Source of the DNA: an uncultured Bacteroidales bacterium
GTDB lineage: Bacteria; Bacteroidota; Bacteroidia; Bacteroidales; FEN-979
Length of the DNA: 64,000 nt
Assembly (NCBI GenBank): GCA_903877385.1
Contig: CAIRDP010000020.1
Span: 186,001 to 250,000 of the forward strand
Reading direction: 5' to 3'
Part shown: positions 22,575 through 54,518 of the stretch, piece by piece
Layout: every line of letters starts with the position of its first letter
Numbering within the stretch: position 1 is the first letter of the stretch
Translations under genes and position numbers: made by a program
The notes under the pieces: model-generated
Databases searched by the model: none
Told to the model about the DNA's origin: nothing
The model's input: only the letters and a program-made list of their open reading frames with translations

Positions 22575-22579
22575 GAAAT

Positions 22580-22660
22580 GAATATCGAATATTGAACATT
22601 GAATGTTGATCGGATTAAGTAATTCGAAATTCAAAGTTTGTTGATCAATATTCGAAATTC
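22580..22660 (+). repeat. Composite intergenic repeat, family A (copy R1)
   Basis: The element fills the gap between prfB and the ArsC-like gene, starting five bases after the prfB stop. It begins GAATATCGAATATTGAAC, includes the near-palindrome AACATTGAATGTT, and ends with a 36-nt block (22625-22660) that matches the reverse complement of 51491-51526 at 34 of 36 positions. The order of blocks relative to transcription is the same in both copies. Confidence 0.8.
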
Positions 22661-22683
22661 TATTTTAATTAAATCGTAAATAT

Positions 22684-35035: not shown

Positions 35036-35284
35036 ATGGAAGATTTTGAAAAAATCCTGGTCCTTGACAATGAATTCGAGGCGGAACTTATGGAGGAAGT
35101 ACTTATGGATAAGCAGATCCCATATGGGATCATAATACGTGAGGATTCCGCTTTAGGCGGTATCGTTGACCTTGAAGAAGGATGGGGTTACCTGGAAGCA
35201 CCCGCCCGCTGCAGGGAAGAGATCATGAAGATTTATCAGGAGATCCAGGATACATCAACTGATCCGGGAGAAGAGGAAGCGTGA
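35036..35284 (+). CDS. Small DUF2007-like (putative signal-transducing) protein
   Basis: From ATG 35036 the protein has 82 residues (an in-frame start at 35015 adds seven). The pattern ILVLDNEFEAELMEEVLMDKQIPYGII resembles DUF2007 proteins, which have a small alpha/beta fold resembling PII-like regulators. The sequence is strongly acidic. Its stop codon TGA overlaps the ATG of the M28-type gene at 35284 by one base, so the two proteins are coupled and may act together. Confidence 0.6.
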   Translation: MEDFEKILVLDNEFEAELMEEVLMDKQIPYGIIIREDSALGGIVDLEEGWGYLEAPARCREEIMKIYQEIQDTSTDPGEEEA

Positions 35285-38259
35285 TGGGCTGGAAACGTTT
35301 TCTTGAGAATTTTCCCTGGTTTGAAGGGGAAGGCGGGTTTCCGCTGCCTGCATATTCGGAGTTTATGCCGCCCATGCATATCGGCTTCAGGCCCCATGAC
35401 GGGCAGGTTTATCCCTGGCATTTCAAAGAGGATGACCTGTATGGCTTTTATTTAAGCGAAGCGGAAGAGTTTCTGCATCTGAGGCCCGGAATGCAAAACA
35501 TAGGGTTGCAATGCATGGAGCATATGATACAACTGGGTAAAGGAAAACTTCCGCCAAGTATCGCCGGTCGTCATAACCGCAACCTGAAGGATAATCCATT
35601 CTGGCCGGATGAGCTTGCCTCAAAAGCAGGAAACCTTGATTACGAGAGGTATGTTTTGCTGGCTCCCCTGGCTTTATCCAAAACCAAGGACGATAAAGGC
35701 AGGTCGAGGTGGACCTTGTTCGGGAGCAGTGAGCAAGGTCCTGAAAAAGCATTCTGGAAATCGTTTTTCAAAGGAGAAAATGAAGAATATCCCGAATCCT
35801 TTTTCCTTAGATTCATGGGCAGGATCTTCCATCATGCCTATGACCGTAAAATCCATACTTCCGAGGCCATGCTTGAGGCAGGTTTCCGCATACTTCCCTC
35901 TTCAGGGAAATTGCCCGCCAAACACTGGAACGAGGCGGCACTGCCTTCATGGACTTCAAAATACCTTGTTTCGGAGAGCGACGATTTTGCAGATGCTGTG
36001 TACCTGCTTACCTTCCAGCCTTTCGGTTGCCTTCCCGGGCTGGTCAAACAAAAATATTTCTCAGGTGACTTAGCCCTGATCCCCTTCCCGGGCAGCCTTT
36101 CGCCATGGGGGAACAAGGAATACATCAGCCTGTCGGACAAGCTTTATAATGCGATACAGTTTCCCATGCTGAGGCTGGTCTCCCGAAATGAAGATAATTA
36201 CGGGATCAGGGTTCCCCAGTCGGGCTGGTTTCACGAACCCTCGCCGGGGAATGAGAAACCCGACATCCTCGAGGAACTCCTGCTAAATACCTATGTACGC
36301 ACAAGCCGCTGGGACCGGGCTGATAAAACCGCTAACCCCCTGGTTGGCAGTAAGGAGATCGACCCTGTCGCTCAAACTCTATTTAACACCACGCTTGCGG
36401 CCCTTGACTTGTATAACAAACCCATGGCCAGGAATGTGCAGCTTCTGAACGAACATATAGAACTTCTGCTTGACGGCCCGAGGGCAGGGAAGAAGGAAAT
36501 AGAACATGCCGCTAAAGTCGTACTCTCAGGAGGGCTTTTCCGTTACCGTTTTTATTTTCCGCCCATGCAGGCCGGGAAGCATGAGATCTTCTGGCACAGA
36601 CCGCTTGTGGCATGCATTGATACGGCGACTGCAGCTCCCATCGTTTTCCCCGATCTCCTTCACGGGTACCTCACCGCTTATGATACGGCAGGTCCGGATC
36701 CCTCAAGAGCGATCGAGCTATGGCCCAGGATGATGGAAAGGCAGCCCCATACCTCCATCCTGAAACATTTTATCTCGGAGCATGACCACAGCAAGCACCT
36801 GACCGCTTTCAACCTGATGACCTTAATGGATGTTTGCGAATTGCTTGAATTGCCATCCCTCGAAAAAGACTTTGCCCGCCACCTGATCAGGATTAAAAAA
36901 GATGCAGGCCTTGAAGACTGGCTGGGGATTCTGCATGAACGGACATACCAGCCTGGGCTGGCCCACAGGTCAAGGGTGTTCATAGAAAACATTGTAAGGG
37001 ATAACGATACCTCGCTGCAGCCCCTGACGTTCGGCCATACAGCTACAAGAAAATACGAAGAGGATTTTTGGAACAGGATATGCTTCCTTGCCTGCGGCGA
37101 TTATATCAACAAGGACAATGCCGATGTGGTCCAGGACCATCCCACCCTGAGTAAAACGAGGCATAAGGAAAGGGACCTTCACAGGCTGGGCGATTACCTG
37201 CTCAGCAGCCACCGAAAGGCCATTGCAGACGCCGGTATGCAAGGGATGGCCGAAGCAGGTGAGTTACCCTTCAAATGGGAGACCGATTTTGATTTTACAC
37301 AGTTTGGTGGCTGGAAAGCCAACCTGGAGGGTACCGAATATGAAAGGAACATCCTTGTTATCATACCTGGGAAGAACAGGAAAGAAGCCGTGATCATGGG
37401 CGACCATTACGACACGGCTTATATGGAAGATGTGTATGACAAGTCGGAAGGCGGAACCGGGGCAAGGCTTTCAGCTGCCGGGGCCGACGACAATCATTCT
37501 GCGACTTCCACCCTGCTTCTTGCCGCTACTGCGTTTTTGAAGCTTTCAAAGGAAGGCAAACTTGAAAGAGATATCTGGCTCATCCATCTTACCGGGGAGG
37601 AATTCCCTTCGGACTGCATGGGAGCCAGGGATTTCTGCCGGAACTATGTACAAAAAACCCTTAAGATGCGCAGGGAGGACAACAGCTATAAAGACCTCAG
37701 TGATGTGGAAGTTAAAGGGGTTTTTGTGATGGATATGATTGCGCACAACCGCGATAATGCAAAGGACATCTTCCAGATATCCCCGGGGCGAACCCTTGAA
37801 TCGGTAAACCTCGGGTATAAGGCCCACCTGGTCAACCGGACCTGGAATAAACTCGCCTTGGAGCAGAATTCGGGACCGGAGAGGGCCGGTTGCAAAAGAG
37901 GGGAAAGGATTAAAATGCAGGATGCTGGATCAGGGATAAAGGATGCAGGATACAGTATGCAGGATACAGTATCAGGGGTTCAGGATTCGGGATGCAGGAT
38001 TCCCGAAAAGGCATTGTTCCTGCCCCTTGAAGGGGAAGTTCGTACTTGGGAAGATGCTACCAGTTCATTATACAATACCGATGTGATGATATTTTCCGAC
38101 ATCGGGATCCCCTGTGTTCTTTTCATGGAAAATTATGACATCCATCGCCAGGGATATCATGACACCCATGACACCATGGAAAACATTGACCTGGATTATG
38201 GTTCGGCATTGTCGGCGATTGCTATTGAAACCGTTGCCCAGGTTGCGGCAGGGAAATGA
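35284..38259 (+). CDS. Large cytoplasmic M28-family zinc peptidase-like protein with unknown N-terminal region
   Basis: The 991-residue protein (GTG at 35281 is an alternative start) has no signal peptide. The C-terminal third is an M28 domain with a full set of metal residues: GDHYDT (His708, Asp710), GADDNHS (Asp735/Asp736), TGEEFPSD (Glu772, Glu773), MDMIAH (Asp817) and GYHDTHDT (His959). The first 650 residues are unlike anything I recognise and are rich in Trp, His and Tyr. Residues about 878-907 are encoded by a GATGCAGGAT repeat kept in frame. M28 enzymes are usually exported aminopeptidases of 300-600 residues, so size and location are unusual. The coupled DUF2007-like gene lies directly upstream. 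Confidence 0.75.
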   Translation: MGWKRFLENFPWFEGEGGFPLPAYSEFMPPMHIGFRPHDGQVYPWHFKEDDLYGFYLSEAEEFLHLRPGMQNIGLQCMEHMIQLGKGKLPPSIAGRHNRNLKDNPFWPDELASKAGNLDYERYVLLAPLALSKTKDDKGRSRWTLFGSSEQGPEKAFWKSFFKGENEEYPESFFLRFMGRIFHHAYDRKIHTSEAMLEAGFRILPSSGKLPAKHWNEAALPSWTSKYLVSESDDFADAVYLLTFQPFGCLPGLVKQKYFSGDLALIPFPGSLSPWGNKEYISLSDKLYNAIQFPMLRLVSRNEDNYGIRVPQSGWFHEPSPGNEKPDILEELLLNTYVRTSRWDRADKTANPLVGSKEIDPVAQTLFNTTLAALDLYNKPMARNVQLLNEHIELLLDGPRAGKKEIEHAAKVVLSGGLFRYRFYFPPMQAGKHEIFWHRPLVACIDTATAAPIVFPDLLHGYLTAYDTAGPDPSRAIELWPRMMERQPHTSILKHFISEHDHSKHLTAFNLMTLMDVCELLELPSLEKDFARHLIRIKKDAGLEDWLGILHERTYQPGLAHRSRVFIENIVRDNDTSLQPLTFGHTATRKYEEDFWNRICFLACGDYINKDNADVVQDHPTLSKTRHKERDLHRLGDYLLSSHRKAIADAGMQGMAEAGELPFKWETDFDFTQFGGWKANLEGTEYERNILVIIPGKNRKEAVIMGDHYDTAYMEDVYDKSEGGTGARLSAAGADDNHSATSTLLLAATAFLKLSKEGKLERDIWLIHLTGEEFPSDCMGARDFCRNYVQKTLKMRREDNSYKDLSDVEVKGVFVMDMIAHNRDNAKDIFQISPGRTLESVNLGYKAHLVNRTWNKLALEQNSGPERAGCKRGERIKMQDAGSGIKDAGYSMQDTVSGVQDSGCRIPEKALFLPLEGEVRTWEDATSSLYNTDVMIFSDIGIPCVLFMENYDIHRQGYHDTHDTMENIDLDYGSALSAIAIETVAQVAAGK
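37914..38003 (+). repeat. Family B repeat (GATGCAGGAT words) inside the M28-type gene
   Basis: GATGCAGGAT-like words (ATGCAGGATGCTGGAT, GGATGCAGGATACAG, ATGCAGGATACAG, GGATGCAGGATTC) occupy about 90 bases with no stop in frame. They encode a Gly/Asp/Gln/Ser-rich loop between the metal-ligand Asp817 and His959 blocks. Confidence 0.75.
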
Positions 38260-39328: not shown

Positions 39329-39365
39329 AGTTAAATGTAATAAATTAATCAAGCGAGATACACCA

Positions 39366-39428
39366 TGTACAATGTACAATGTACCAGTACCCAGTACCAA
39401 GTACCCAGTACCAAGTACCAAGTGCCAG
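39366..39428. repeat. Short-word repeat, GTACCAAGTACCC units (family D)
   Basis: GTACAATGTACAATGTACC is followed by several copies of AGTACCCAGTACCA and AGTACCA. It lies midway between the two divergent ECF-type promoters. Confidence 0.75.
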
Positions 39429-39972: not shown

Positions 39973-40008
39973 AACCGTGAACCGGATTTAGAGTCAGGGT
40001 TCACGGTT
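39973..40008. terminator. Hairpin between convergent genes (39550 gene and tandem uvrA)
   Basis: AACCGTGAACC (39973-39983) pairs with GGTTCACGGTT (39998-40008) around a 14-base loop that contains the uvrA-like stop codon. There is no T-run on either side, so it is a weak bidirectional terminator or an RNA-stabilising hairpin. Confidence 0.45.
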
Positions 40009-43000
40009 TCCGGCTTTCAACAGGTACCCGCCGGCCATTCCACCTTCGGGGCCTAATTCAATAATAAAATCAGCCTCGGCAACGATCTGCCGGTCATGTT
40101 CAATGATGATAAGAGTATTTCCCTGGCCGGCCAGGCCGTTGAAAAGCTTTAAGAGGTTTTCAATATCGCTGAAATGAAGTCCCGTTGAAGGCTCATCGAA
40201 TAGGAAAAGAGATGCGGGATGCGGGATGCGGCGTGTAATTTGGTTCAATAATTCCTTTGACAGGTTTAACCGCTGGGCCTCGCCTCCCGAAAGGGTATTC
40301 AAAGGCTGTCCCAGCTTAAGGTAACCCAGGCCGGCCAGTTCAAGATTCAGAAGGATTGAACTAAGGTTCTTATTCCCCATGAAGAAAGCTGATGCTCCGG
40401 CCAGGCTCAATTCGAGTACTTCTGCAATATTTGCTCCCTGGTACCTCACTTCCAGTATACCGGGCCTGTATCTTTTTCCAAGGCAACCCTCGCATTCCCT
40501 GTAAATATCGGGCATGAAATCCATGCTGATCCTGGTCCTGCCTGTGCCCTCGCAGGCAGGGCATTGAGATTGTTTGCCAAGGAAAGAAAAATGGTTCTTG
40601 CCGAAGCCCTTTTTCTTTGCATCTTCCGTTGATGCAAACAGCGTCCTTACCAGGTCGAAAACCCCTGAATAGGTTGCAACAACGGCAAGCGGGGAGCTGA
40701 ATTCCTCCCTCTGTTCCACAGTGACAATCCGGCTGAAGTTTTCAAAACCGCTTATTCCGCTGCAACCGACAGCTCTTCCCTCCTGCCAGGAGGCATGGAG
40801 AAGATCAAAAACCAGGCTGGATTTCCCGCTTCCCGATACCCCGGTAACACAGATGATGCCTCCCGAAGGAATTTCCAGGTCGAAATTTTTCAGGTTATGG
40901 ATGAAGGCATTGTTTATTCTGAGTCCGGATGACATCGCCCTGGGAGCATGTTTTACAGGGTTCAGCAAGGTTCGCAGGTATTTCCCCGTTATCGAATTCA
41001 CCGATCCCATGATCTCTTTGGGACTGCCTTCGGCAACGATCTCACCACCCAGGGATCCGGCGCCGGGACCCATATCGATGATATGATCGGCCCCTAGAAT
41101 CAACTCCCGTTCATGTTCAACGGTAATCACTGTATTTGACGAAGCGATTAGCTGCCTTATATGTGTGAGCAACCTTGAAATATCCCGGGAATGCAATCCT
41201 GCCGTAGGTTCATCAAGTACGTAGATCATCCCCGACAGTCCCGAACCGGTCTGTCCGGCCAGTTGCAGGCGCCGGGTTTCACCATGGGAGAGGGAACCTA
41301 CGCTCCGCGAAATCGTCAGGTACGAAAGGCCGAGGGTTTCCAGGATAGCCAGCCTGCGGAGGATCTCAGCAATCAAGGGTGTACTTATCACGGTAATGTC
41401 AGCTTGTTCAGGCCTGCTTAAAAACTCAATGCAGCCGGCAATGCTGAGCTCCGATATTTCCTTTATGTTCTTATGGCGGATGAGCCATGACAAAGCCCCG
41501 GCATTTAATCTGCTTCCAAGGCAATCCGGGCATTCCAGGCTGCTCATCACATGGATCATATTCTCGCCCCGGTGGTCGGCATGCTTGCGGGTATATTCTT
41601 CATTGACCAATTTAAGAAAGCCCTGCCAGCGGCCTTTGAACTGATGCACTCCGCTTCGCTTGTTCCTGAGGAATTCCCAGCTTACATCATAAGTCTCGTC
41701 CCCGCAACCTTCGAGGGCAAGTTCTTTTGCTACGTCCGAAAGTTCGTTCCATGGCCTGCTGTAATCAATTCCATGCTTCTCCCCTACGGCCCTGAGGCTT
41801 GCAGTATACTGCCCGTAAGGATCCCCATAAAACCTGCCTGTTTTGCTGCCGTCCATCGCCCCCTGCAGTATGGATAGTCCGGGATTGCTTATAAGTTTTG
41901 CAGGATCGCAAAGTGTAAGCATTCCAAGCCCGTCACATGCGGGGCAGGCGCCCTGGATGTGGTTGAAAGAGAACAGGCTTGAGAGCGGCCTTTCGCCCGG
42001 GCCTTCGCCTGCCTTTGAAAACAGCAGGCGGAGGAGGTCGTAAATCCCGGTATAAGTCCCTACGGTAGAGCGGGGATTGGTTTGCAGGCCCGACTGTTCA
42101 ACGGCAAACGAGGGTCGCAAGCCTTGAATCTCATCAAAATCCGGTTTATCCTTCATCCCTATCCGGGATCTTGCATAGGCCGAAAAATTGCCCAGGAAGC
42201 GGTTCCGGGCCTCGGCATGAATGGTATCGAAAGCCAGGGAAGATTTGCCGCTGCCCGAAACACCGGTGATGACGGTAAGAAGGCCGTGGGGGATAGTTAC
42301 ATTGATTCCCTTGAGGTTGTTCGTAGTTACGTTTTTCAGAGTTAAGGATGCGGGATGAGGTGCTTCGCACCGATACGGGACGGGGTGCTTCACAACGAAG
42401 GGGGATGTGGCGCTTTGCGCTGATGCGGGATGCGGGATGGGGTGCTTCGCATTGATGCGGGATGCATCCTGAAAATATTCCTCTCCACTGCCAAAAAACA
42501 CAATTCGCCCTCCCTCTTCCCCGCTTCCGGGGCCAAGCTCTGTCACATGGTCTGCTGATTTTATCAAGGCCGGATGATGTTCAATGCAGATCATGGTATG
42601 GCCGTGGTTTGCAAGGCCGTTCAGGCAGGTCAACAATTTTTTCACATCATCATTATGCAGCCCGGTCGTTGGCTCATCCAGTATGTACAGTGTATGCACC
42701 GACGGCGGTTTCGCAAGTTCCGTTGCCAGTTTTACCCTCTGGGCTTCTCCCCCGCTGAGAGTCGAGGAACGCTGCCCCAGTGTGAGGTACCCGAGCCCGA
42801 GTTCGTCCATGGTTTGCAGGTAACGCAATATTCTTTTCTCTCCTTCAAAGAAAGAAAGGGCCCCGGAGACCTGCATTTCAAGAACCTCGTAAATATTTTT
42901 ACCTTTAAAAAGCACCTTCAGGGTTTCATTGTCGAAACGCCTGCCATTGCAGCTTTCGCAAAGTGTTTCAACGTTTCCCATAAAATGCATGCCTGTTTGC

Positions 43001-44922
43001 CTGTAGCCGGCTCCCTCGCAGTCCTCGCAACGGCCGCCGCTGGTATTGAATGAAAAACGGCTTTTCCCGAACCCCTTCTCAAGGGATGCTGGCAGTGATG
43101 CAAACAGGTCGCGGATATGATCGAAAAGGCCGGTATAGGTGGCGGGATTGCTCCGGGGGGTACGGCCTATGGGCGACTGGTCGATTTCGGTAAGGCGTTT
43201 AATGGCTTCCCAACCTTCAATGGAACTGAACTCCCCCCCCTCTTCATTGCTGCCGTTCAGTTTCCTCCTGAAAAAACTTCCCAGAGTCTGGTGCACAAGG
43301 CTTGCTTTTCCTGAACCTGAAACACCAGTCACGACATTCAGCGCCTGTAACATGAATGAAACATCAATTTTTTTCAGGTTATGATGAACAGCCCCCGAGA
43401 TCTTCAGCTCAGCCTTGTTTTCCCGAACAAGGGCAGGAAAATCCACGCGTTCACGTCCCCATAAATAAGCCAAAGTCCTGCTTCCTGCAATAATTTCTTC
43501 GGGAAGCTTGTGCAATTCCTGTACGGCACAGTTAACAAGTACTTTCCCACCCAAAATCCCGGGTCCCGGCCCAATATCGATCAATTGGTCGGCATGCCTG
43601 ATGAATTCCTCGTCATGTTCAACCACAATTATACTGTTCCCCTGGTCGCGGAGCTGTTTCAGCAATGCGATGAGCGACAGGATCTCGGCAGTATGCAATC
43701 CTATGGATGGTTCATCAAAAACATAGATCATCCCGCTGAGGCCCGAACCCATCTGGGTTGCAAGCTTCAGTCTGCGTGATTCCCCTGCCGATAAGCTTCC
43801 CGATTCCCTGTCAACCGAAAGATGACCCAGCCCCAGCTGTTTCATACTGCCGACCAGGGTTGTTATGCCATGTATGATCTCCTGTGAGGCTTCTTTCAGC
43901 CCCGGAAGAAATTCCACGGCAGCAATCGATTCGGCCATCACGGTCACGGGCAGGGCCGACAATGCCGCCAGGTCCCAACCCCCGACCTTCACCGAAAGGG
44001 CCTTTTCATTCAGCCTCTTACCTTTACATGCTGAGCAGGAGGTGGTTCTCACAAACCTGAGTATATTCTTATTCCTGTCCCGCTTCAGGATCTCTTCCAT
44101 GACAGGGATGATGCCTTTATAAACCCCCATTTCACGGGGTTTTGCAGTGATCCCGCTCCATTTCATCCTGGATTCCAGTGGATGTTTCCCAAACGGAACT
44201 TCGATCTTGCTGCTACCGTATAATATCACCCGCTTATTTTCGGGGGTAAGGTCTTTCCAGGGTATGTCGATAGTAAAGCCTTCGGCCCTGCATACCTGGT
44301 CCAGCACCTCCAGGGTCACCTGTGAATACATTATATACCCGTTGGGGGTGGTTATGGCCATGCATCTCTGGCGGATGGACTTTGCCGCATCCTCAACCAG
44401 GAGGTCGGGATCAAGGCGGTCTTCAACGCCAAGTCCTTTGCAATGCGGGCAGGCCCCATCGGCCGAATTAAAAGAAAATAAACTGCGGTTGATCAGAAAA
44501 TCCGGAGCCCGGAGCCCAGAGCCCGGAGCCCAGAGCCCAGAGCCCGGTGCCTCATCCCAGGCCTTACCGGTTCGGGCAAACAAAAGCCGCAGGTGATCGT
44601 AGATCCCGCTGATAGTCCCGACGGTGGACCTGGGGTTGTTGATCGCCGATCGCTGGTCCACGGCCACCGCCGGGGACAGGCCTTCGATGCGTTCAACTTC
44701 AGACCGTTTCATTTTCCCGAGAAACATTCGTGCATAAGCCGAAAAAGACCCGAAATACCTGAACTCAGCTTCACGGAAGAGCACATCGAAGACCAGGGAG
44801 GATTTTCCTGAGCCGGAAACACCGGTAACCACGACAAAGCTGTTCCTGGGAATGTCCAGGGTAACCGACTTCAGATTGTTCTCGGAAGCATTGACTATCC
44901 TTATCACTTCATTTTCATCCAC
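39994..44922 (-). CDS. Tandem UvrA-like protein with four ABC ATPase modules, lacking UvrB-binding domains
   Basis: The 1642-residue protein is two UvrA-like halves in one chain. Walker A motifs GVSGSGK(S/A)S have their lysines near residues 40, 539, 892 and 1366. Signature motifs are LSAGE, LSGGE, LSHGE and LSGGE in order. UvrA zinc modules are kept (for example CEDCEGAGY...CESCNGRRF and CPACEGTG...CEGCLGKRY). In both halves the segment from Walker A to the first Cys motif is about 100 residues shorter than in E. coli UvrA, removing the UvrB-binding domain. It is therefore not a standard excision-repair UvrA but resembles UvrA2/class III proteins, possibly tied to damage tolerance or drug resistance. 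Three repeats are translated: residues about 125-141, 819-859 (the fusion junction) and 1564-1571. Confidence 0.85.
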   Translation of the reverse strand: MDENEVIRIVNASENNLKSVTLDIPRNSFVVVTGVSGSGKSSLVFDVLFREAEFRYFGSFSAYARMFLGKMKRSEVERIEGLSPAVAVDQRSAINNPRSTVGTISGIYDHLRLLFARTGKAWDEAPGSGLWAPGSGLRAPDFLINRSLFSFNSADGACPHCKGLGVEDRLDPDLLVEDAAKSIRQRCMAITTPNGYIMYSQVTLEVLDQVCRAEGFTIDIPWKDLTPENKRVILYGSSKIEVPFGKHPLESRMKWSGITAKPREMGVYKGIIPVMEEILKRDRNKNILRFVRTTSCSACKGKRLNEKALSVKVGGWDLAALSALPVTVMAESIAAVEFLPGLKEASQEIIHGITTLVGSMKQLGLGHLSVDRESGSLSAGESRRLKLATQMGSGLSGMIYVFDEPSIGLHTAEILSLIALLKQLRDQGNSIIVVEHDEEFIRHADQLIDIGPGPGILGGKVLVNCAVQELHKLPEEIIAGSRTLAYLWGRERVDFPALVRENKAELKISGAVHHNLKKIDVSFMLQALNVVTGVSGSGKASLVHQTLGSFFRRKLNGSNEEGGEFSSIEGWEAIKRLTEIDQSPIGRTPRSNPATYTGLFDHIRDLFASLPASLEKGFGKSRFSFNTSGGRCEDCEGAGYRQTGMHFMGNVETLCESCNGRRFDNETLKVLFKGKNIYEVLEMQVSGALSFFEGEKRILRYLQTMDELGLGYLTLGQRSSTLSGGEAQRVKLATELAKPPSVHTLYILDEPTTGLHNDDVKKLLTCLNGLANHGHTMICIEHHPALIKSADHVTELGPGSGEEGGRIVFFGSGEEYFQDASRINAKHPIPHPASAQSATSPFVVKHPVPYRCEAPHPASLTLKNVTTNNLKGINVTIPHGLLTVITGVSGSGKSSLAFDTIHAEARNRFLGNFSAYARSRIGMKDKPDFDEIQGLRPSFAVEQSGLQTNPRSTVGTYTGIYDLLRLLFSKAGEGPGERPLSSLFSFNHIQGACPACDGLGMLTLCDPAKLISNPGLSILQGAMDGSKTGRFYGDPYGQYTASLRAVGEKHGIDYSRPWNELSDVAKELALEGCGDETYDVSWEFLRNKRSGVHQFKGRWQGFLKLVNEEYTRKHADHRGENMIHVMSSLECPDCLGSRLNAGALSWLIRHKNIKEISELSIAGCIEFLSRPEQADITVISTPLIAEILRRLAILETLGLSYLTISRSVGSLSHGETRRLQLAGQTGSGLSGMIYVLDEPTAGLHSRDISRLLTHIRQLIASSNTVITVEHERELILGADHIIDMGPGAGSLGGEIVAEGSPKEIMGSVNSITGKYLRTLLNPVKHAPRAMSSGLRINNAFIHNLKNFDLEIPSGGIICVTGVSGSGKSSLVFDLLHASWQEGRAVGCSGISGFENFSRIVTVEQREEFSSPLAVVATYSGVFDLVRTLFASTEDAKKKGFGKNHFSFLGKQSQCPACEGTGRTRISMDFMPDIYRECEGCLGKRYRPGILEVRYQGANIAEVLELSLAGASAFFMGNKNLSSILLNLELAGLGYLKLGQPLNTLSGGEAQRLNLSKELLNQITRRIPHPASLFLFDEPSTGLHFSDIENLLKLFNGLAGQGNTLIIIEHDRQIVAEADFIIELGPEGGMAGGYLLKAGNREP
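40211..40231 (-). repeat. Family B repeat in the tandem uvrA (loop before Walker B of module IV)
   Basis: On the coding strand GCATCCCGCATCCCGCATC encodes RIPHPAS directly before LFLFDEPSTGLH. Canonical UvrA has a short loop here. Confidence 0.7.
42347..42468 (-). repeat. Family B repeat array at the fusion junction of the tandem uvrA
   Basis: About 120 bases of GATGCGGGATG and GGGTGCTTCGCA words alternate with slight changes. The coding strand gives KHPIPHPASAQ...KHPVPYRCEAPHPAS, joining the second ATPase module to the start of the third. Confidence 0.8.
44502..44550 (-). repeat. Family C repeat (GAGCCCGGAGCCCA words) in the tandem uvrA
   Basis: GGAGCCCGGAGCCCAGAGCCC-type words repeat for 49 bases, encoding APGSGLWAPGSGLRAP in the first half. 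This is the site where UvrA proteins normally carry the UvrB-binding domain. Confidence 0.75.
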
Positions 44923-46565: not shown

Positions 46566-47486
46566 ATGCAAACTATCTTAGGCAGCGGGGGCGCTATCAG
46601 CCGGGAACTGTTACCCGAACTGGTAAAATATACCGACCGCATCCGTCTTGCAGCTCGCAATCCAGGGACTTATTCAGGGAAAGAAGAGCTTTTTAAAGTT
46701 GACCTGCTTGATGCAGACAGGACGGCAATGGCCGTTGAGGGCTCCGATGTGGTTTATCTTCTTGCGGGTCTTCAGTATGATATCCGTGTTTGGAAAGTAT
46801 CCTGGCCCCGGATCATGGACAATGTGATCGAAGCCTGCAAGAAACATAATTCAAAGCTCGTTTTCCTGGATAATGTTTATATGTATGGACTGGTTAAGGG
46901 GTGGATGACTGAAAAAACTCCATACAGGCCTTGCAGCCGTAAAGGCGAGGTGAGGGCCGCCATCGCAAGCAGGCTCATGGATGAGTCCGGCAAGGGGAAC
47001 CTGCATGCAATGATCGCCCGTTCGGCTGATTTTTTGGGTCCTGCGGCCACAAACACCTTCATGCATCCCATGATCTTTTTGAAACTGAAGGAAAAGAAGA
47101 AAGCAAGCTGGCTTTGCAACGACAGGCTCATGCATTCTTTCACATTCACTCCCGATTCGGGTAAAGCATTAGCCCTGTTGGGCAATACCCCCGATGCCTT
47201 TGACCAGGTATGGCATCTGCCCACTGACCATTCCCCATTGAACGGCAGGGAATTCATCGGCCATGCAGCTTTTAATATGAAGGCAAAAGCCGAATATTCG
47301 GTCATGAAGACCTGGATGATGAGGATGGGAGGGCTGTTCAGCCGTCTTGCGCTGGAAAGCCTTGAAATGGCCTACCAGTATGAGAATGAATACCTTTTTG
47401 ACAGCTCTAAATTTGAAAGCAGGTTTTTCAAGGCAACGAGATCGGTGATGGCGGTGGAAATCACTGCAGCATCATACAAAACTTAA
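46566..47486 (+). CDS. NAD(P)-binding epimerase/dehydratase-like (atypical SDR) protein
   Basis: The 306-residue protein has a Rossmann start trimmed to MQTILGSGGAISRELLPEL, with GSGG-x-I replacing GxxGxxG, an acidic strand-2 end, and VVYLLAGLQYD. It keeps YMYG (the SDR Tyr position) without a clear YxxxK lysine, pointing to the atypical SDR group that binds NAD(P) but may not be a classical oxidoreductase. Length fits. The gene is single, with its own consensus promoter. Substrate unknown. Confidence 0.7.
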   Translation: MQTILGSGGAISRELLPELVKYTDRIRLAARNPGTYSGKEELFKVDLLDADRTAMAVEGSDVVYLLAGLQYDIRVWKVSWPRIMDNVIEACKKHNSKLVFLDNVYMYGLVKGWMTEKTPYRPCSRKGEVRAAIASRLMDESGKGNLHAMIARSADFLGPAATNTFMHPMIFLKLKEKKKASWLCNDRLMHSFTFTPDSGKALALLGNTPDAFDQVWHLPTDHSPLNGREFIGHAAFNMKAKAEYSVMKTWMMRMGGLFSRLALESLEMAYQYENEYLFDSSKFESRFFKATRSVMAVEITAASYKT

Positions 47487-47520
47487 GTCGAGAAAAGCTA
47501 TAATTCGCAGTCGCCTTGAA

Positions 47521-48663
47521 TTATTCCTTCGAAACTGCCCGGGAGATGACCACCCTCTGAATCTCAGATGTGCCCTCGTAAATCTGGGTAAGCTTGGCTT
47601 CACGCATAAGGCGTTCAACATGGTATTCCTTTACGTATCCATAGCCTCCATGTATCTGCACCGCTTCGGTGGTCACCCACATGGCGGTATCGGCGGCAAA
47701 CAGCTTGGCCATGGCGCTTTCCGTTCCATAGGGCATATGGTTGTCCTTAAGCCAGGCTGCTTTATACACAAGATTCCTTGCTGCTTCAATACGGGTGGCC
47801 ATATCCGCAATTTTAAAGGCAATGGCTTGATGATTTATAATCTCAGTACCGAAGGCCTTGCGTTCTTTTGAGTATTTCAGGGCCCTTTCATAGGCTCCTT
47901 CGGCAATTCCCAAAGCCTGGGCTGCAATGCCTGTGCGGCCGCCTTCAAGCAGTTTCATTGCAAATTTAAAACCGAAGCCATCCTCACAGATCCTGTTTTC
48001 CCTGGGGATGACAACATCGGTAAACATCACCGAATGCGTATCGGAACTGCGCATCCCCATTTTATCTTCATGCGGGCCGAGGGTGATCCCGGGGGTGTTC
48101 CTTTCGACTATGAAAGCATTGATCCCCTTGGTTTTGATCCCCGGATTTGTCTGGGCAATGACCAGGTAAACGGAACCTTTATCGGCACTGGTGATCCAGT
48201 TCTTGACCCCGTTAAGCAGGTAATGATCGCCTTTATTGATTGCCGTTGTTCGCTGTGAAGAGGCGTCGGAACCCGCCTCTGGCTCCGAAAGAAGAAAGGC
48301 CCCGATTTGTTCACCGGTAGCCAGGGGGCGAAGGTACTTTGCCTTCTGCTCTTCCGTACCGAAACGTTCAATGCCGTAACAGGCGAGGGAGTTATGGACT
48401 GCCAGGATCACCGCTACCGAAGCGTCGCATTTGGAAATTTCCTCTATGGCCAGGGCATAGGAGATGGCGTCCATTCCACCTCCTCCCCATTCGGGTGATA
48501 CATTCATGCCAAGAAAGCCGAGTTCGGCAAGACGGCGGACATGCTTAGTCGGGTAGATACTGTTGGCATCGCGTTCGAGCACATCAGTAAGGAGTTCGCG
48601 CTGGGCAAATTCCCTTGCCGAGTCGCGGATCATTTTCTGTTCTTCAGTTAGTTCGAAATTCAT
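47521..48663 (-). CDS. Acyl-CoA dehydrogenase (short-chain/butyryl type)
   Basis: The 380-residue FAD enzyme oxidises acyl-CoA to trans-2-enoyl-CoA. It begins MNFELTEEQKMIRDSAREFA. The FAD/substrate motif AFLLSEPEAGSDASSQRTTA and the C-terminal IYEGTSEIQRVVISR are diagnostic; Glu in YEGTSE is the catalytic base in short- and medium-chain members. It is the last gene of the operon enoyl-CoA hydratase, 3-hydroxyacyl-CoA dehydrogenase, thiolase, acyl-CoA dehydrogenase. An ETF partner is not in the window. Confidence 0.93.
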   Translation of the reverse strand: MNFELTEEQKMIRDSAREFAQRELLTDVLERDANSIYPTKHVRRLAELGFLGMNVSPEWGGGGMDAISYALAIEEISKCDASVAVILAVHNSLACYGIERFGTEEQKAKYLRPLATGEQIGAFLLSEPEAGSDASSQRTTAINKGDHYLLNGVKNWITSADKGSVYLVIAQTNPGIKTKGINAFIVERNTPGITLGPHEDKMGMRSSDTHSVMFTDVVIPRENRICEDGFGFKFAMKLLEGGRTGIAAQALGIAEGAYERALKYSKERKAFGTEIINHQAIAFKIADMATRIEAARNLVYKAAWLKDNHMPYGTESAMAKLFAADTAMWVTTEAVQIHGGYGYVKEYHVERLMREAKLTQIYEGTSEIQRVVISRAVSKE

Positions 48664-48698
48664 GGCAATTTTATTAGAACGGTAAGAAATTCGTAAGG

Positions 48699-48732
48699 AA
48701 GACGTGAAGTAGAACGTGAAGAAGAACGAAGA
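48699..48732. repeat. Short-word repeat, GAAGTAGAACGTGAAG units (family F)
   Basis: GAAGACGTGAAGTAGAACGTG is followed by AAGAAGAACGAAGAG in the 99-base gap between the thiolase and acyl-CoA dehydrogenase genes. Its word set differs from those in the other two gaps of this operon. Confidence 0.6.
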
Positions 48733-48762
48733 GATTAGTCACTCAATATTCAACTTCCCTTT

Positions 48763-50001
48763 TTACTTCTTAAACACTATAGACACCAGCGTTTTATCAT
48801 CTCCTCCCATATTCGCCATAAGGCCGTACTGACGGTCAGCGGGAATGTTCACCTGCGATGCACCGGCTTTGCCTTTCAGTTGTTCCCATAAGGTCACAGC
48901 CATATGAACCCCGGTGCCCCCGGTGGGATGACCCCATCCAATGAGTCCGCCGGTGGTATTGATCGGGAAATTCCCGTCGCGGGCAGTGTTCCCTGCAATA
49001 ACATACTCCGGACCCTTCCCCTGAGGAGCCAATCCGAGGGCCTCTACCGCCATGATCCCTGCCACTGTAAAACAGTCGTGGATCTCGGCTGTGGCAACCT
49101 GCTGAATCGATATCCCTGCACACTCCAGGGCATTTGAAACAGCCGTCTTCATGGTAGTCAAAGCTGTCATTTCGGGAGGGGGCTTTGTGATATCTTCTTC
49201 AACCTGCCCGTACCCGACTACTTCAACCGCATCCGAAACCGGGATCCCGCAACGCTTCAGTCCTTCCTCGCTCATGATGGCGATTGCCGAAGCCCCGTCC
49301 GACACCTTGGAACAATCCAGGGCTGTTAGATTCTCAAGAAAAGTTTTAGGGTTAGGTTCCGCCATGGCCGCTGCTTCAAGGTCCTTCGTTGTATTATGAT
49401 ATTCCTGTGCAGTCGGGCAAAGCCTCGCGTTTTCTATAGCATTCCTGTACCAGCGGGCGAAGCCCTTCCGGGTCATCTCCCTGCCAAACTTGTTAAAATA
49501 TGCTCCCGCCCTGTCGCTGAACTGCCCAGGGAAGAAATAAGCATGCCCGTCCTTGCGGTTTGCAGCCCATCCTGCCGGTGCGAGAAAGTCGGCGCAATAT
49601 ATTGCTTTCACCGTATTCTGTACCTCAAAACCTACGGCCAGGACCACTTCGGCTGTTTCGGCGAGAATGCTTTTAATCCCGCTCATCAGCGCCAGGCCAC
49701 CGGTCCCGCAAGCCCCTTCTACACGGATCGCCGGCTTGTAACGAAGGCCTTCGTCGATAAAAGGAAAAAATGCAGCCAGGTTGGCCTGCCTGTTGAAACG
49801 AGAAGCCATGAAATTTCCTATCACACATTCATCCACATTCTTCGCTCCTCCGATGAGTTTCAGGGTCCCCTGGCCGGCTTCCTTTATATAATCCTCCAAA
49901 CCCGGGCGCTCTTTCTTCGGATTGAATTCCTTACGGCCGCTTCCCATGGAAATGGTATTGTACCCGGCCACCATATATACTTTTCTTCTCAGTTTTTTCA
50001 T
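48763..50001 (-). CDS. Thiolase-family acyltransferase (acetyl-CoA acetyltransferase / SCP2-thiolase-like)
   Basis: The 412-residue protein has the nucleophilic Cys in VEGACGTGGLALMSG (near residue 97), the HDCF motif (AEIHDCFTVAG) and the late GWGHPTGGTGVHMA with its catalytic His. Spacing and the HDCF motif place it with SCP2/archaeal-type thiolases rather than the FadA/AtoB type. In the operon it would cleave 3-ketoacyl-CoA, or condense acetyl-CoA in the reverse direction. Thr and Ser residues around SDGASAIAIM fit the family. Confidence 0.88.
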   Translation of the reverse strand: MKKLRRKVYMVAGYNTISMGSGRKEFNPKKERPGLEDYIKEAGQGTLKLIGGAKNVDECVIGNFMASRFNRQANLAAFFPFIDEGLRYKPAIRVEGACGTGGLALMSGIKSILAETAEVVLAVGFEVQNTVKAIYCADFLAPAGWAANRKDGHAYFFPGQFSDRAGAYFNKFGREMTRKGFARWYRNAIENARLCPTAQEYHNTTKDLEAAAMAEPNPKTFLENLTALDCSKVSDGASAIAIMSEEGLKRCGIPVSDAVEVVGYGQVEEDITKPPPEMTALTTMKTAVSNALECAGISIQQVATAEIHDCFTVAGIMAVEALGLAPQGKGPEYVIAGNTARDGNFPINTTGGLIGWGHPTGGTGVHMAVTLWEQLKGKAGASQVNIPADRQYGLMANMGGDDKTLVSIVFKK

Positions 50002-50038
50002 TTCAAAATGTTTTTAAACAAATAACACTTTTAACCCC

Positions 50039-50071
50039 ATCCTGCATCCTGCATCCTGCATCCCGCATCCT
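50039..50071. repeat. Family B repeat (GCATCCT words) in the gap before the thiolase gene
   Basis: CATCCTGCATCCTGCATCC followed by TGCATCCCGCATCCTC. The reverse complement gives GATGCAGGATGC words, the same family as inside the M28-type and uvrA-like genes. Confidence 0.8.
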
Positions 50072-50112
50072 CTTCAGAGCAGTACAACAGCCTTGATGCC
50101 CTGCCGGCATGA

Positions 50113-51450
50113 TCAATCCATGTAATCGTTGATCGGTCCGTAAGCATGGAAAAACCCTGTGAGCAGAACCGTGTTCACATCGGCATCGTTAAATGCAACC
50201 CCGCCCGAAACAAGGTGTTTGCCAATCTCCCTGGACTTCTTCACGTAATTTCGGGCGATCTCTGCACCCACCGATTCAGCCGACTTCAGCTGGGAAAAAT
50301 ATGGTTTCAGCAGATCGTCCTTGGCCTTATTGCCTACAACAGCTTTCCAGGCAGGAGGAGCCGGCATGGCACCCAGTTTTGCTTCCACGGCAGCCTGCAT
50401 CAGGCTCACCGGCACATATTCGCTTTTCAGGGGATCGTACACAGCTACGATCTTTCCTTTTTCGTATTTCATTACCCCGTCTTTCTGCGAACCGTCGGAA
50501 TACTGTCCGCCCCTGATTCCCTGTTCCAGCAACTTGTCGAGGAGCTTGGTGTGGATCTCCTCATCTTTGGTATACGGGTTCATCACGAACATGATGAAAC
50601 TGCAAACATCAACACCAACATAGTCAATAAGCTGGAAAATACCCATAGGCCTTACCAGGTATTCCTGGCTGATCCTGTTGGTCGCATATATAGCTTCAGA
50701 TATTGACATGCCCTTATCCATGAGAGTATGGATCACCTCCACGGCGTAAAGGATGTCGCGCATGAAATGCCCGTTACCGATGAAGCCAGCAATATCATGG
50801 GCAGGCACCACAACTTTCCTGAGGTTCTTTGCATAAGCCAGGGCAAATTCACCCACTTCCTTAAGTGTATGTTTACTGTGGATGAGTTCCACCAGTTTCT
50901 GGACTGCAGGGGGATTGTAAAAATGGAAACCTATGATGCGGCCTCCGAGACCCGCCCCCTCATCAATCACCGTGATGGGGATTGACGATGTGTTGGTAAA
51001 GAACCAGGGTTGCTTGGGATTGTTCTGGTTTATCTGTGAGAATATTTTGATTTTCAGTGCCGAATCTTCCTTGATTGCCTCAAAGATCATCGTTGAATCA
51101 TAGGCTGCTTCCAGACGCGTTGTTGGCCTTACCACGTTCATCACATCGAAGATGTACTGGGCTATGATCTCATCATTGTCGACCAGCTCACGCCGTTCGG
51201 CATAAACAGCCCTTAAACCGACTACCTTCTTTTCGGCAATTTTCAGGATCTGGGCCCTTAGGTAGCGCATTACGCCCGAGAGGGCCTCATCCGAAACGTC
51301 TATTGCATTCAGTACAAAGGTCCTGCCTTTGTTCCCGGGCTTCAGGCTCAGGTCGGCCATCTCAACCGCCGTGAGCAGCAGTAGGCCGCTTCCCATTTTA
51401 CCTGCGGCACCCAGCACCGACACATGCTGTAATCTTTCTTCGTAAGTCAT
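50113..51450 (-). CDS. 3-hydroxyacyl-CoA dehydrogenase
   Basis: The 445-residue protein has the NAD-binding fingerprint SVLGAAGKMGSG in the first 25 residues and the family segment FFTNTSSIPITVIDEGAGL. GRIIGFHFYNPPAVQKLVELI follows, with the catalytic His in GFHFYNP, and the C-terminal domain shows GFIGNGHFMRDILYAVE (the usual GFxxNR is GFIGNG here). It oxidises 3-hydroxyacyl-CoA to 3-ketoacyl-CoA. It is the second gene of the operon, 118 bases after the hydratase gene with a family A repeat between. Confidence 0.9.
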   Translation of the reverse strand: MTYEERLQHVSVLGAAGKMGSGLLLLTAVEMADLSLKPGNKGRTFVLNAIDVSDEALSGVMRYLRAQILKIAEKKVVGLRAVYAERRELVDNDEIIAQYIFDVMNVVRPTTRLEAAYDSTMIFEAIKEDSALKIKIFSQINQNNPKQPWFFTNTSSIPITVIDEGAGLGGRIIGFHFYNPPAVQKLVELIHSKHTLKEVGEFALAYAKNLRKVVVPAHDIAGFIGNGHFMRDILYAVEVIHTLMDKGMSISEAIYATNRISQEYLVRPMGIFQLIDYVGVDVCSFIMFVMNPYTKDEEIHTKLLDKLLEQGIRGGQYSDGSQKDGVMKYEKGKIVAVYDPLKSEYVPVSLMQAAVEAKLGAMPAPPAWKAVVGNKAKDDLLKPYFSQLKSAESVGAEIARNYVKKSREIGKHLVSGGVAFNDADVNTVLLTGFFHAYGPINDYMD

Positions 51451-51490
51451 TGGTTTGATAGTTTGGTTTTTGGATTTACTTCAATAATTT

Positions 51491-51567
51491 GAATATCGAA
51501 TATTGATCAACGAACTTTGAATTTCGATTTAGTCAATTCAACATTCATCATTCAATGTTCAATGTTC
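51491..51567 (-). repeat. Composite intergenic repeat, family A (copy R4)
   Basis: The element starts two bases after the hydratase stop and runs to 41 bases before the next ATG. In the transcript direction it has the block ATTGAACATTGAATG (51563-51549) and then the 36-nt block at 51526-51491, which matches R1 (22625-22660) at 34 of 36 positions. Confidence 0.8.
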
Positions 51568-51568
51568 C

Positions 51569-52339
51569 TTACCATTGGGGCTTGCGTTTCTCCATAAACG
51601 CCTTCATCCCTTCTTTGGTAGCTGCTTCCCCGAAAAGCTGAGCAAAGGCTTTGGCCTCAAGAATGCTGCCTTCGTCAAACGAAAGCGAAATCCCTTCGCG
51701 GATAAGCTTCTTGATGGCCGGTATGGCGCCGGACCCGTTGGAAGCGATCTTTGAAGCAAGCTTCATCACCTCTTCCACCAGGGTTTCGGGTTCGCAAAGC
51801 TTCTGAACAAGGCCGATCCTCAACGCATCTTCAGCCGTGATGGTATCAGCCGTAAGGATAAGGTACAAGGCATTGCCCAGGCCCGAAATCCTCGATAAGC
51901 GCTGGGTGCCGGCATAACCGGGGGTGAGCCCCAGGTTCATTTCCGGTTGCCCGAATTTGGCAAGCTTGCTGGCAAACCTGAAATCACAGGCCATGGCCAG
52001 TTCACAGCCACCGCCCAGTGCATACCCGTTAACGGCTGCAATTACAGGGATGCGCATCTGCTCCAAAAGGGCAAAAACTTCCTGCCCCACCCTTGAGAAA
52101 TTAAACGCTTCGGGCGGAGTCATCCCTGACATCTCGGCGATATCGGCCCCTGCAGCAAATGCTTTGCCCTCGCCGGTCACAACCAAAACCCTCACATCAT
52201 CCCTGGCTTCGAGATCCTGGAGAAAATGTTTCATCTCGGTGAAAAATGCCGTGTTGAGGGCATTAAGTACAGCCGGCCGGCTGATTGTTACCGTGGCAAT
52301 GCGGTCGGCAATAGAAACTTTAAGAATTTTATATTCCAT
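51569..52339 (-). CDS. Enoyl-CoA hydratase (crotonase family)
   Basis: The 256-residue crotonase hydrates trans-2-enoyl-CoA. The oxyanion-hole segment is AFAAGADIAEM. Both catalytic glutamates are present, in ALGGGCELAMACDF and FGQPEMNLGLTPGYAGTQRL. The end MEKRKPQW is typical for the family. It is the first gene of the four-gene beta-oxidation type operon and diverges from the gene at 52482. Confidence 0.93.
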   Translation of the reverse strand: MEYKILKVSIADRIATVTISRPAVLNALNTAFFTEMKHFLQDLEARDDVRVLVVTGEGKAFAAGADIAEMSGMTPPEAFNFSRVGQEVFALLEQMRIPVIAAVNGYALGGGCELAMACDFRFASKLAKFGQPEMNLGLTPGYAGTQRLSRISGLGNALYLILTADTITAEDALRIGLVQKLCEPETLVEEVMKLASKIASNGSGAIPAIKKLIREGISLSFDEGSILEAKAFAQLFGEAATKEGMKAFMEKRKPQW

Positions 52340-52481
52340 TGTTAATCAATTAACAATTAAACGTTTTAGAGGACTTAAATTTACTAATAATAGGTAACGA
52401 AAAATAATTTTGAAAAAAAATGTTAGGTTTACATCCGCATTCGGAAACAATCAGCATGACGGTAAATCCTTTACAGTTTAT

Positions 52482-54518
52482 ATGAAAAAACGTATATTTT
52501 TAATCAGTATTGTTCTGCATGGGTTATTGTTCCTCCCGCTTCATTCTTCTTCCCAGGCTTCCTTTCACACCGATGAACTGAAACTTGATCTGGGGAAACA
52601 GGGGCAGCTCAAATCGCTCAGCAGTCTTGCCCTGAATAAGGATTACCTGTACAAAGGTTCTGAATCATTCCTAATAAAGATAAGAACTGAAGGCGGATGG
52701 GAATCTCCCGGCAGCCTTACTGCCATGAAAGAGCAAGGCATGATCAGGCTCAGCTATCCTGCAAGCAAAGTGAGCCTTGAAATCAGGGTAAGCGAAAAAC
52801 CGGCATACCTGGTATTCGAAATCATCAATGCTGAGCCGGTTGGCAAGGTGGATCTCATAAACTGGGGGCCGGTTCCCCTGGCCATCAGCAGAACCGTTGC
52901 AGAGATCATCGGCGTGAGCAGCAACGACTCCATAGCCATCGGGCTCATGCCCCTGAACGTAAAAACCCTTGGAGGTTTTCCGCTGAACGACGAAGGCTCG
53001 GATCCCTCGAGAAGCAGCTCAGCTCAAAAAACTGATTTTGGCTCGGTGGTACAGGCATACTGCCTGGACCGTTCACGACCCCGCATGGTTGACGGCTGGT
53101 GGGGACAGTTTCCCGGCATGCCGGTTGAACCCATCCCCGGGGAAACTGTCAGGGGATCGAAGATCGCCCTGTTTGCCTGCAGGCCAGGGATGATGCTTAA
53201 CAGGATTGAAACTATAGAACTGGCCGAAGGCCTCCCCCACCCGATGATTGAAGGCAGCTGGTCGAAACGCTCCCGGCTTTCGGGCAGGTCTTATCTTATT
53301 GCCGATTACTCGGAAGAAACCATTGACGAACTGCTTGAGTACACCAAAAGGGCAAACCTGCAAACCCTCTACCATATGAATGCCTGGGCCTCCTGGGGGC
53401 ATTATGAATTGAACACCGGCTTCTTTCCCCACGGTCTGCCGGGCCTGAAAACATGCATGGATAAAGCGAAAAGCAAAGGCATACTGCTAGGTGCCCATAC
53501 CCTTACCAATTTCATCAACACCAATGATGCCTATGTGAGCCCGGTTCCCGACCACCGGCTTGCAGTTACCGGGAGCAGCAAACTAACGACCGCTCTCGGT
53601 GAAACCGATTCAACCATCAACCTGGAATCAACGAAGTACTTCATCAACGAAAAGGCAAACTGGCTGCATGCGGTTCGCATCGACGACGAGCTGATCATAT
53701 ACAGGGCCGCCACATCCGCCAGCCCATTCCAGCTGAAAGGATGTAAACGCGGGGCTTTCGGGACAAAGCCATCGGCACACAAAAGAGAAAAAGAGGTAAA
53801 TAAATTACTCGATCAGCCCTATATGGTTTTTTTTCCCAACCTGGAACTTCAGCAGGAAATCGCATTGAACCTGGCCAAACGCTTCAATGAGACCGGTTTT
53901 TCGCAGATGGACTTCGACGGTTTCGAAGGCTGTCTTGCTTCGGGGCAGGGCGATTATGCCCAGGAACTTTTTGCCAAAACCTTTTACGAGAACCTGGACC
54001 ATACGGTTCTTAACGGAACCAGCATGTCGAAACCGTTTTACTGGCATATCAACACTTACTGCAACTGGGGGGAGCCCTGGAACGGGGGATTTACCGAGAG
54101 CATGCAGCAATATCGCATCGACAACCAGGGGCTGTTCGACCGCAACCTGATGCCGCATATGCTGGGATGGTATCTTCTTACCGACAGCACAACCCTACCC
54201 GAAATGGAATGGATGCTGGCCCGTGCTGCGGGTTATAACGCGGGTTTCGGCATGGCAACCAGCCTGAAAGCTTTAAGGAATAACCCGCTTACGCCCGAAC
54301 TCCTGGATGCCATACGTGAATGGGAGATCTGCCGCAGTAACAAGGTATTTCCCAGGGAACTTATCGACGATCTGAAAGACCCTTCAAAAGAATTCCACCT
54401 CGAAAAGGTCTCGGCCGTGGTATGGGATCTTTATCCCATGGTCAGAACCGGAATGGTAAATGGAAAACCCCGGTACGAACGCGGTAAACCCGTGAGGATA
54501 AAAGTGTATGTGGAATAA
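52482..54518 (+). CDS. Secreted protein, possible glycoside hydrolase-like TIM barrel, unassigned family
   Basis: ATG 52482 is chosen because a signal peptide follows (MKKRIFLISIVLHGLLFL; an upstream in-frame start at 52410 adds 24 polar residues). The first 230 residues look beta-rich. From about residue 270 the text alternates strand and helix as in a TIM barrel, with NAWASWGHYELNTGFFPHGL, GILLGAHTLTNFINTNDAYVS and TGFSQMDFDGFEGCLASGQGDY. The acidic Asp/Glu cluster in MDFDGFEG sits where GH-A-like or GH27/36-like enzymes keep catalytic acids. I cannot assign a CAZy family. No SusCD genes are adjacent. Confidence 0.6.
   Translation: MKKRIFLISIVLHGLLFLPLHSSSQASFHTDELKLDLGKQGQLKSLSSLALNKDYLYKGSESFLIKIRTEGGWESPGSLTAMKEQGMIRLSYPASKVSLEIRVSEKPAYLVFEIINAEPVGKVDLINWGPVPLAISRTVAEIIGVSSNDSIAIGLMPLNVKTLGGFPLNDEGSDPSRSSSAQKTDFGSVVQAYCLDRSRPRMVDGWWGQFPGMPVEPIPGETVRGSKIALFACRPGMMLNRIETIELAEGLPHPMIEGSWSKRSRLSGRSYLIADYSEETIDELLEYTKRANLQTLYHMNAWASWGHYELNTGFFPHGLPGLKTCMDKAKSKGILLGAHTLTNFINTNDAYVSPVPDHRLAVTGSSKLTTALGETDSTINLESTKYFINEKANWLHAVRIDDELIIYRAATSASPFQLKGCKRGAFGTKPSAHKREKEVNKLLDQPYMVFFPNLELQQEIALNLAKRFNETGFSQMDFDGFEGCLASGQGDYAQELFAKTFYENLDHTVLNGTSMSKPFYWHINTYCNWGEPWNGGFTESMQQYRIDNQGLFDRNLMPHMLGWYLLTDSTTLPEMEWMLARAAGYNAGFGMATSLKALRNNPLTPELLDAIREWEICRSNKVFPRELIDDLKDPSKEFHLEKVSAVVWDLYPMVRTGMVNGKPRYERGKPVRIKVYVE

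Follow-up and report, generated by a model that had tools for sequence, protein, structure and literature searches.

In the genome of an uncultured Bacteroidales bacterium, the genes of a beta-oxidation operon are separated by three gaps that hold short-word repeats, and the locus raises the question of what these repeats are and how they came to lie between the genes. The window, that is, the whole stretch of DNA analyzed here, comprises 64,000 nucleotides (C20:186001-250000; contig CAIRDP010000020.1) of a 4.30-Mb genome in 67 contigs. The operon lies entirely on its minus strand and, by Pfam domains, comprises the genes for enoyl-CoA hydratase (the first gene; 51569..52339; PF00378), 3-hydroxyacyl-CoA dehydrogenase (50113..51450; PF02737/PF00725), thiolase (48763..50001; PF22691/PF02803/PF00108) and acyl-CoA dehydrogenase (47521..48663; PF00441/PF02771). 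A sequence-only reading of the region had assigned a repeat family of its own (A, B and F) to each gap and had seen in this a non-random process, either the insertion of repeats into spacers or a role in setting relative expression. The analysis described below argues for insertion: the gaps hold members of a lineage-restricted population of short tandem arrays, the units of which have 7 or 8 bases, and this population was probably spread by template switching and slippage and filtered by selection.

Repeat families in the operon gaps

The gap lengths given in the earlier reading were borne out, namely 118 bp behind the hydratase gene (51451-51568), 111 bp behind the dehydrogenase gene (50002-50112) and 99 bp behind the thiolase gene (48664-48762). 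Its premise that operon gaps usually measure only a few bases is roughly right, as congeners without arrays at two of these gaps have 12 and 51 bp there. In an own-genome sample of stretches covering 20% of the genome, co-directional gaps of 10-1000 bp have a median length of 48 bp without arrays versus 109 bp with arrays.

The hydratase-dehydrogenase gap contains a family A element (51491..51567, minus strand), which begins 1-2 nt behind the hydratase stop codon and is composed of two heptamer arms, a left arm of the TTGAAYR type and an inverted right arm (..ATTCGTTGATCAATATTCGATATTC), that form an imperfect hairpin. The dehydrogenase-thiolase gap contains a family B array, (GGATGCA)n / (CATCCTG)n, of 4.9 copies (50038..50071, minus strand). 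The period-7 scores of both gaps were unmatched in 1000 dinucleotide-preserving shuffles, and both words recur throughout the genome: when up to 3 mismatches were allowed, a 25-mer taken from B was found at 57 places; for a 21-mer from A the number was 54, and the reversed control gave 0 in each case. A second complete family A element lies in a convergent gap of the window (22575..22668). The ends of family A are inverted over 17 bp, and a form of ~80 bp recurs. Chimeric elements, in which the left arm belongs to one unit family and the right arm to family A, also occur (L081, L083, L090, L094 and L105); in L081 and L090, for example, the left arm is of an octamer family. The carriage of family A by phages was rejected, the 21-mer having 0 exact matches among viral contigs. 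At window positions 50072-50112, the ~40 bp that separate the dehydrogenase stop codon from the B array are missing in congeners, and the C-terminus of the dehydrogenase differs there (EYLD* vs NDYMD*).

The repeat of the third gap is of another kind. "Family F" (48698..48728) is a local tandem repeat of ~12 nt; at period 12 its gap beats all 1000 shuffles, whereas at periods 7-8 it is ordinary (p 0.21). Its pattern has a single other place in the genome, with 3 mismatches, and it is therefore rejected as a dispersed family. Thus, the claim that each gap carries its own family, with words that recur elsewhere in the genome, stands for A and B and falls for F. The same gap holds the short word TTGAATATTGA behind the thiolase stop codon (48743..48753, minus strand), which, as read in the sequence, appears to be a relic of family A; in the closest congener (G005), a complete family A element follows the orthologous thiolase stop codon (L032). 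An Rfam scan of positions 47000-53000 matched no described RNA family.

Unit size and phylogenetic extent

The repeat units are almost exclusively of 7 or 8 bases. In 464 kb of the window's own genome (195 gaps, 26.3 kb intergenic), intergenic tandem runs amounted to 9.94 per kb at lag 7 and 4.99 per kb at lag 8, and to 0.00 at lags 5, 6, 9 and 13; the multiples (lags 14, 16, 21, 24 and 28) were likewise raised. Coding DNA showed 0.18 (lag 7) and 0.03 (lag 8) runs per kb, and simulated gaps 0.00. A larger scan of 864 kb yielded 47 arrays at lag 7 and 16 at lag 8, as compared with 0, 4, 0 and 4 at lags 5, 6, 9 and 10, respectively; a few of the lag-8 arrays were tetramer repeats, which were excluded from subsequent steps. 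The lag-7 arrays are predominantly intergenic (0.90 per kb intergenic vs 0.03 per kb coding), and the unit changes from 7 to 8 bases within some single arrays (ACCCAGTACCCAGTAACCCAGTAACCCAGTACCC).

The phylogenetic sample comprised the own genome and 46 relatives, mostly 20-60 kb each, with 37 genomes in the window's family and 10 in other families of the order. The relatives are metagenome-assembled genomes (MAGs) of uncultured Bacteroidales, mostly derived from lakes, and such assemblies may shorten arrays. Arrays of 7- or 8-base units are present in 31 of the 37 genomes of the window's family, in which the pooled runs per kb reach 13.86 (lag 7) and 7.68 (lag 8), with 0.00, 0.07, 0.60 and 0.21 at lags 5, 6, 9 and 10. 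The 10 genomes of the other families (27.6 kb of gaps) have pooled values of 0.00 and 0.04 at lags 7 and 8. Among the sampled genomes, these arrays are thus restricted to, or at minimum very strongly concentrated in, the window's family. Some excess at lags 7 and 8, above a background that is itself higher, is also seen in more distant named loci, and the boundary is therefore inexact.

Turnover at orthologous gaps

One test suggested in the earlier reading was whether the family at a given gap changes between strains, and such changes were seen in a gap-by-gap comparison with seven congeners, whose dehydrogenases are 82-90% identical. The hydratase-dehydrogenase gap contains family A in the own genome and in G003, an octamer array of AGTAGCGA with an inverted partner in G005, a GTGACTA heptamer array with an inverted partner in G006, and a long GGATAACT/GGATAGCT octamer array in G007; no such array is present in G001 or in G002, the gap of which measures 51 bp. 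Across the congeners, ~40 bases upstream of the dehydrogenase start remain recognizably similar, and it is the stretch behind the hydratase stop codon that varies. The dehydrogenase-thiolase gap contains B in the own genome, short remnants of B in G004, G006 and G007, and an octamer of CCCAGTAA in G005, and comprises just 12 bp in G002 and G003. Elsewhere in the window, a divergent gap holds a heptamer array of GTACCAA/GTACCCA/GTACAAT (39362..39427) that G001 lacks at the orthologous position (L154). Strict unit size, genome-wide recurrence, restriction to a lineage and the exchange of families between congeners at one gap all support the insertion of repeats into spacers by a non-random process.

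Arrays inside protein genes

The arrays are not limited to gaps. Of 30 B places examined, 19 lie within predicted reading frames, although some of these places overlap. In the window, an in-frame family B array (MQDAGSGIKDAGYSMQD...) is located at 37915..38000 (plus strand) in an M28-type peptidase gene (35284-38259). A UvrA-like gene (39994-44922, minus strand) encodes a double-length protein of 1642 aa with heptamer-encoded inserts at three loops, one of which directly precedes the Walker B motif. The corresponding in-frame arrays, all on the minus strand, lie at 40211..40231, adjoining the Walker B motif, at 42347..42465, a region of the GATGCGG type, and at 44502..44551, a CCGGAGC heptamer array. 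In congeners, these loops are empty or carry other 7/8-base repeats, such as those encoding RNSSIVN-type peptide repeats in G003 and SSYPVIQ-type repeats in G004; at the motif-adjoining loop they have no array or other families, and at the CCGGAGC loop G004 has a longer and different repeat block.

A kinase-like gene (L021 862-1833; L339-L344) has a single hypervariable loop, which is empty in G003, encodes an 18-residue B hairpin in the own species and in G005, and in G004, G006 and G007 is occupied by heptamer arrays of different kinds. The reading frame is kept in all of these insertions. A B-like match of the 25-mer, within 1 mismatch, was also seen in a gene with a PEHFVDEKTGLPTL motif (Tex-like by eye; L008 1111-2988, minus strand). 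This gene is about as long as in congeners; a clean insertion was rejected here because the congener proteins share its length.

Dispersal, placement and hairpins

The sharing of units within and between genomes was compared by using one array per gap from 141 gaps of 23 genomes, a match being defined as a unit within one mismatch. A unit is shared in 12.7% of within-genome pairs vs 2.8% of between-genome pairs, a difference that was not reached in any of 2000 permutations of the labels, whether or not the window's genome was included. The arrays have therefore spread inside each genome. Moreover, copies of family A have strings of at least three units in common, in a fixed order, and hence whole segments, beyond single units, have been copied. 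In long arrays of 7-mers, the identity between units drops from 0.73 to 0.59 across five units of separation, a decay along the array that is expected from local duplication.

The placement of the arrays is uneven. Among gaps of at least 60 bp, an array is held by 34 of 144 co-directional gaps, 3 of 32 convergent gaps and 5 of 88 divergent gaps. In co-directional gaps, the median distance from the stop codon to the start of the array behind it is 5 nt (within 9 nt in 24/35), and the relative position of the array has a median of 0.10, such that uniform placement is rejected (Kolmogorov-Smirnov p 5e-5, n=27). This placement fits selection against arrays in promoters and the translation leader, and a preference for 3′-ends is compatible with it as well.

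Inverted copies within 150 bp accompany 17 of 56 arrays (~30%), as compared with a mean of 3.6 and a maximum of 6 in the control, for which the flanks of other arrays were used. The predicted RNA of the A gap folds with a z of -2.46, with mismatches interrupting its stem at intervals of about seven bases; RNA of the B and F gaps folds no better than shuffles (z -0.86 and -0.62). No target site duplications were seen around the arrays, as words shared by the flanks were not above those of shuffled flanks (p 0.13) in a test weakened by several overlapping elements in the set.

Origin of the arrays

The course of events that we consider most probable would begin with seeding, in which template switching during DNA synthesis places a copy of array DNA at another site. 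Subsequent growth and shrinkage would proceed by slippage in one-unit steps, the step of 7-8 bases perhaps corresponding to the length that is held by the polymerase, and inverted arms could arise from copying back across a hairpin. Purifying selection would then clear arrays from promoters and the translation leader and spare those behind stop codons and in protein loops. On the best reading, most of the array copies are tolerated passengers that are mostly not regulatory, although hairpin families such as A may have a secondary action on mRNA ends. Several points weigh against this course of events. Slippage alone does not account for the arrival of multi-unit strings, such as the 21-mer present at 54 places, at unlinked sites, and the copying step is therefore an inferred one. 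A polymerase footprint, if universal, would leave the restriction to one family of the order unexplained. In addition, gene starts are approximate, because coding sequences were called with a simple open reading frame scorer based on codon usage.

The placement and the inverted arms could also be accounted for by functional RNA elements: as with REP/BIME sequences that lie between cistrons, hairpins following stop codons would end transcription, shield the 3′-ends of mRNA or adjust the relative output of the operon genes, and the unit sequence would be unimportant. The enrichment of arrays directly behind stop codons in co-directional gaps, their depletion in divergent gaps, the 17 inverted arms against 3.6 expected and the fold of the A gap all suit such a function. 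However, purifying selection alone predicts the same placement, the majority of arrays lack an inverted arm, the B and F gaps fold like their shuffles, arrays occupy coding genes, and congeners with 12-bp dehydrogenase-thiolase gaps do without an array altogether; a general function of this sort thus appears rather unlikely. The more specific suggestion of the earlier reading, a role in setting relative expression, is unsupported, given that occupancy turns over between close species, that the gap of some congeners is array-free and that arrays also reside within coding genes. A lower probability still is given to non-autonomous mobile elements of the MITE or REP type that are moved by a transposase, such as a RAYT-like Y1 transposase. 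The inverted ends and the recurrent form of family A resemble such elements, and each of 8 genomes of the genus has one Y1 gene with an HIH motif and a conserved tyrosine. On the other hand, the number of Y1 genes and the density of arrays are uncorrelated (rho -0.21, p 0.17; 47 genomes), arrays are present in genomes without a Y1 match (G011, G019, G021, G030 and G034), no arrays flank the Y1 gene, target duplications were not found, and many families consist of units only, without defined ends. Mobilization by a RAYT/REP system was therefore rejected as a requirement, both because flanking arrays are lacking and because Y1 counts are not tied to array density in the 47 genomes. As to the Y1 transposase-like gene itself (L141-L148), exactly one copy, with an open frame of 146-162 aa and an HIH motif, occurs in each sampled genome of the genus in a constant gene neighborhood, and it is probably a vertically kept, domesticated RAYT-like gene.

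The strict unit size, combined with many unit sequences, also resembles RNA-templated repeat addition, in which a telomerase-like or other repeat-adding reverse transcriptase would make repeats of 7-8 nt that are later integrated. DRT10 makes tandem-repeat cDNA off a short non-coding RNA template (PMC12632851). Its described example, however, has a 9-nt unit, and chromosomal integration was not found described in that report; an RVT_1 reverse transcriptase is present in only 2 of 8 genomes of the genus, whereas arrays are present in nearly all, and the decay of unit identity along arrays suits local duplication. Thus, a DRT10-like RVT_1 enzyme was rejected as a requirement, and templated writing in general seems very improbable. 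Finally, single gaps are short and AT-rich, and low-complexity sequence might be mistaken for repeats in them by chance. Shuffled and reversed controls of zero, together with practically zero values in the 10 genomes of other families by the same method, refute a chance origin of A and B and leave this explanation with a negligible probability.

Relation to known repeats and significance

Heptameric repeats are of an already known kind, represented by STRR, TAACTGA and GGGAATC. The GGGAATC / GGGGA(C/T)T repeats of Xanthomonas and Nostoc (Rehm et al., 2015; PMC4692102) likewise consist of tandem 7-base units that are mainly intergenic and near the open reading frame on their 5′-side, are under-represented between divergent open reading frames, vary in length among close species and have no known function. 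They differ in that they are dominated by a single G-rich unit and that the species have most sites in common, whereas here dozens of unrelated 7- and 8-nt units occur and the family at a site changes between congeners. The TAACTGA repeats of Beggiatoaceae, Cyanobacteria and five Bacteroidetes (MacGregor, 2015; PMC4679880) are also intergenic heptamer direct repeats with other heptamers intermixed, with repeat-free orthologous gaps in relatives and 7-nt indels. In the BOGUAY genome, however, they directly precede start codons, with few related heptamers, in contrast to the multi-family arrays behind stop codons described here; TAACTGA is absent from the heptamer units listed here. Cyanobacterial STRR heptanucleotides (Calothrix), as far as they are described where they are cited (PMC4692102), similarly comprise several tandem heptanucleotide families per genome, but belong to another lineage with other units, and octamers and paired inverted arms are features of the present arrays. 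The latter share with this class the tandem 7-nt arrays in mostly intergenic positions, with 8-nt arrays abundant too.

Several palindromic and mobile elements show partial likeness. Rickettsia palindromic elements (PMC10969869) similarly comprise several families with palindromic members and occur in-frame in unrelated protein genes. These are elements of ~150 bp with a conserved peptide per family, whereas the arrays here have variable length and no fixed ends, and both their lengths and their units differ between congeners at one loop. REP/BIME and MITEs are, like family A, dispersed imperfect palindromes behind genes; the present arrays differ from them in having neither RAYT dependence nor target duplication and, in most families, no inverted ends, terminal inverted repeats of the MITE type being present in family A and an inverted arm in ~30% of arrays. 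A search of openly accessible literature for heptameric tandem repeats in Bacteroidetes gave no result. What is new is the clade, the rule of 7 and 8 across many unrelated units, the replacement of one family by another at a given site among congeners, and the presence of in-frame arrays within conserved protein genes.

That heptamers are over-represented in bacteria has been on record, though unexplained, since 2007, and slippage related to a polymerase footprint has been offered as a hypothesis (PMC4692102). A clade in which a large and strictly 7-8-base effect extends across many related species and is lacking in sister families allows comparative tests of the responsible gene, of array birth and of the rate of turnover. 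In practical terms, the repeats confound the annotation and assembly of lake MAGs in this lineage. The in-frame arrays in the UvrA-like and kinase genes show that protein loops, too, are rewritten by this process. A bolder and more doubtful proposal, which we put forward tentatively, is that the window's family of Bacteroidales carries a putative dedicated machinery, or a property of its polymerase, that writes and disperses arrays of exactly 7- or 8-base units and keeps re-filling identical sites, downstream of stop codons and within tolerant protein loops, with new units. If this is true, such a machinery or property would supply this lineage, specifically, with new sequence between genes and in protein loops.

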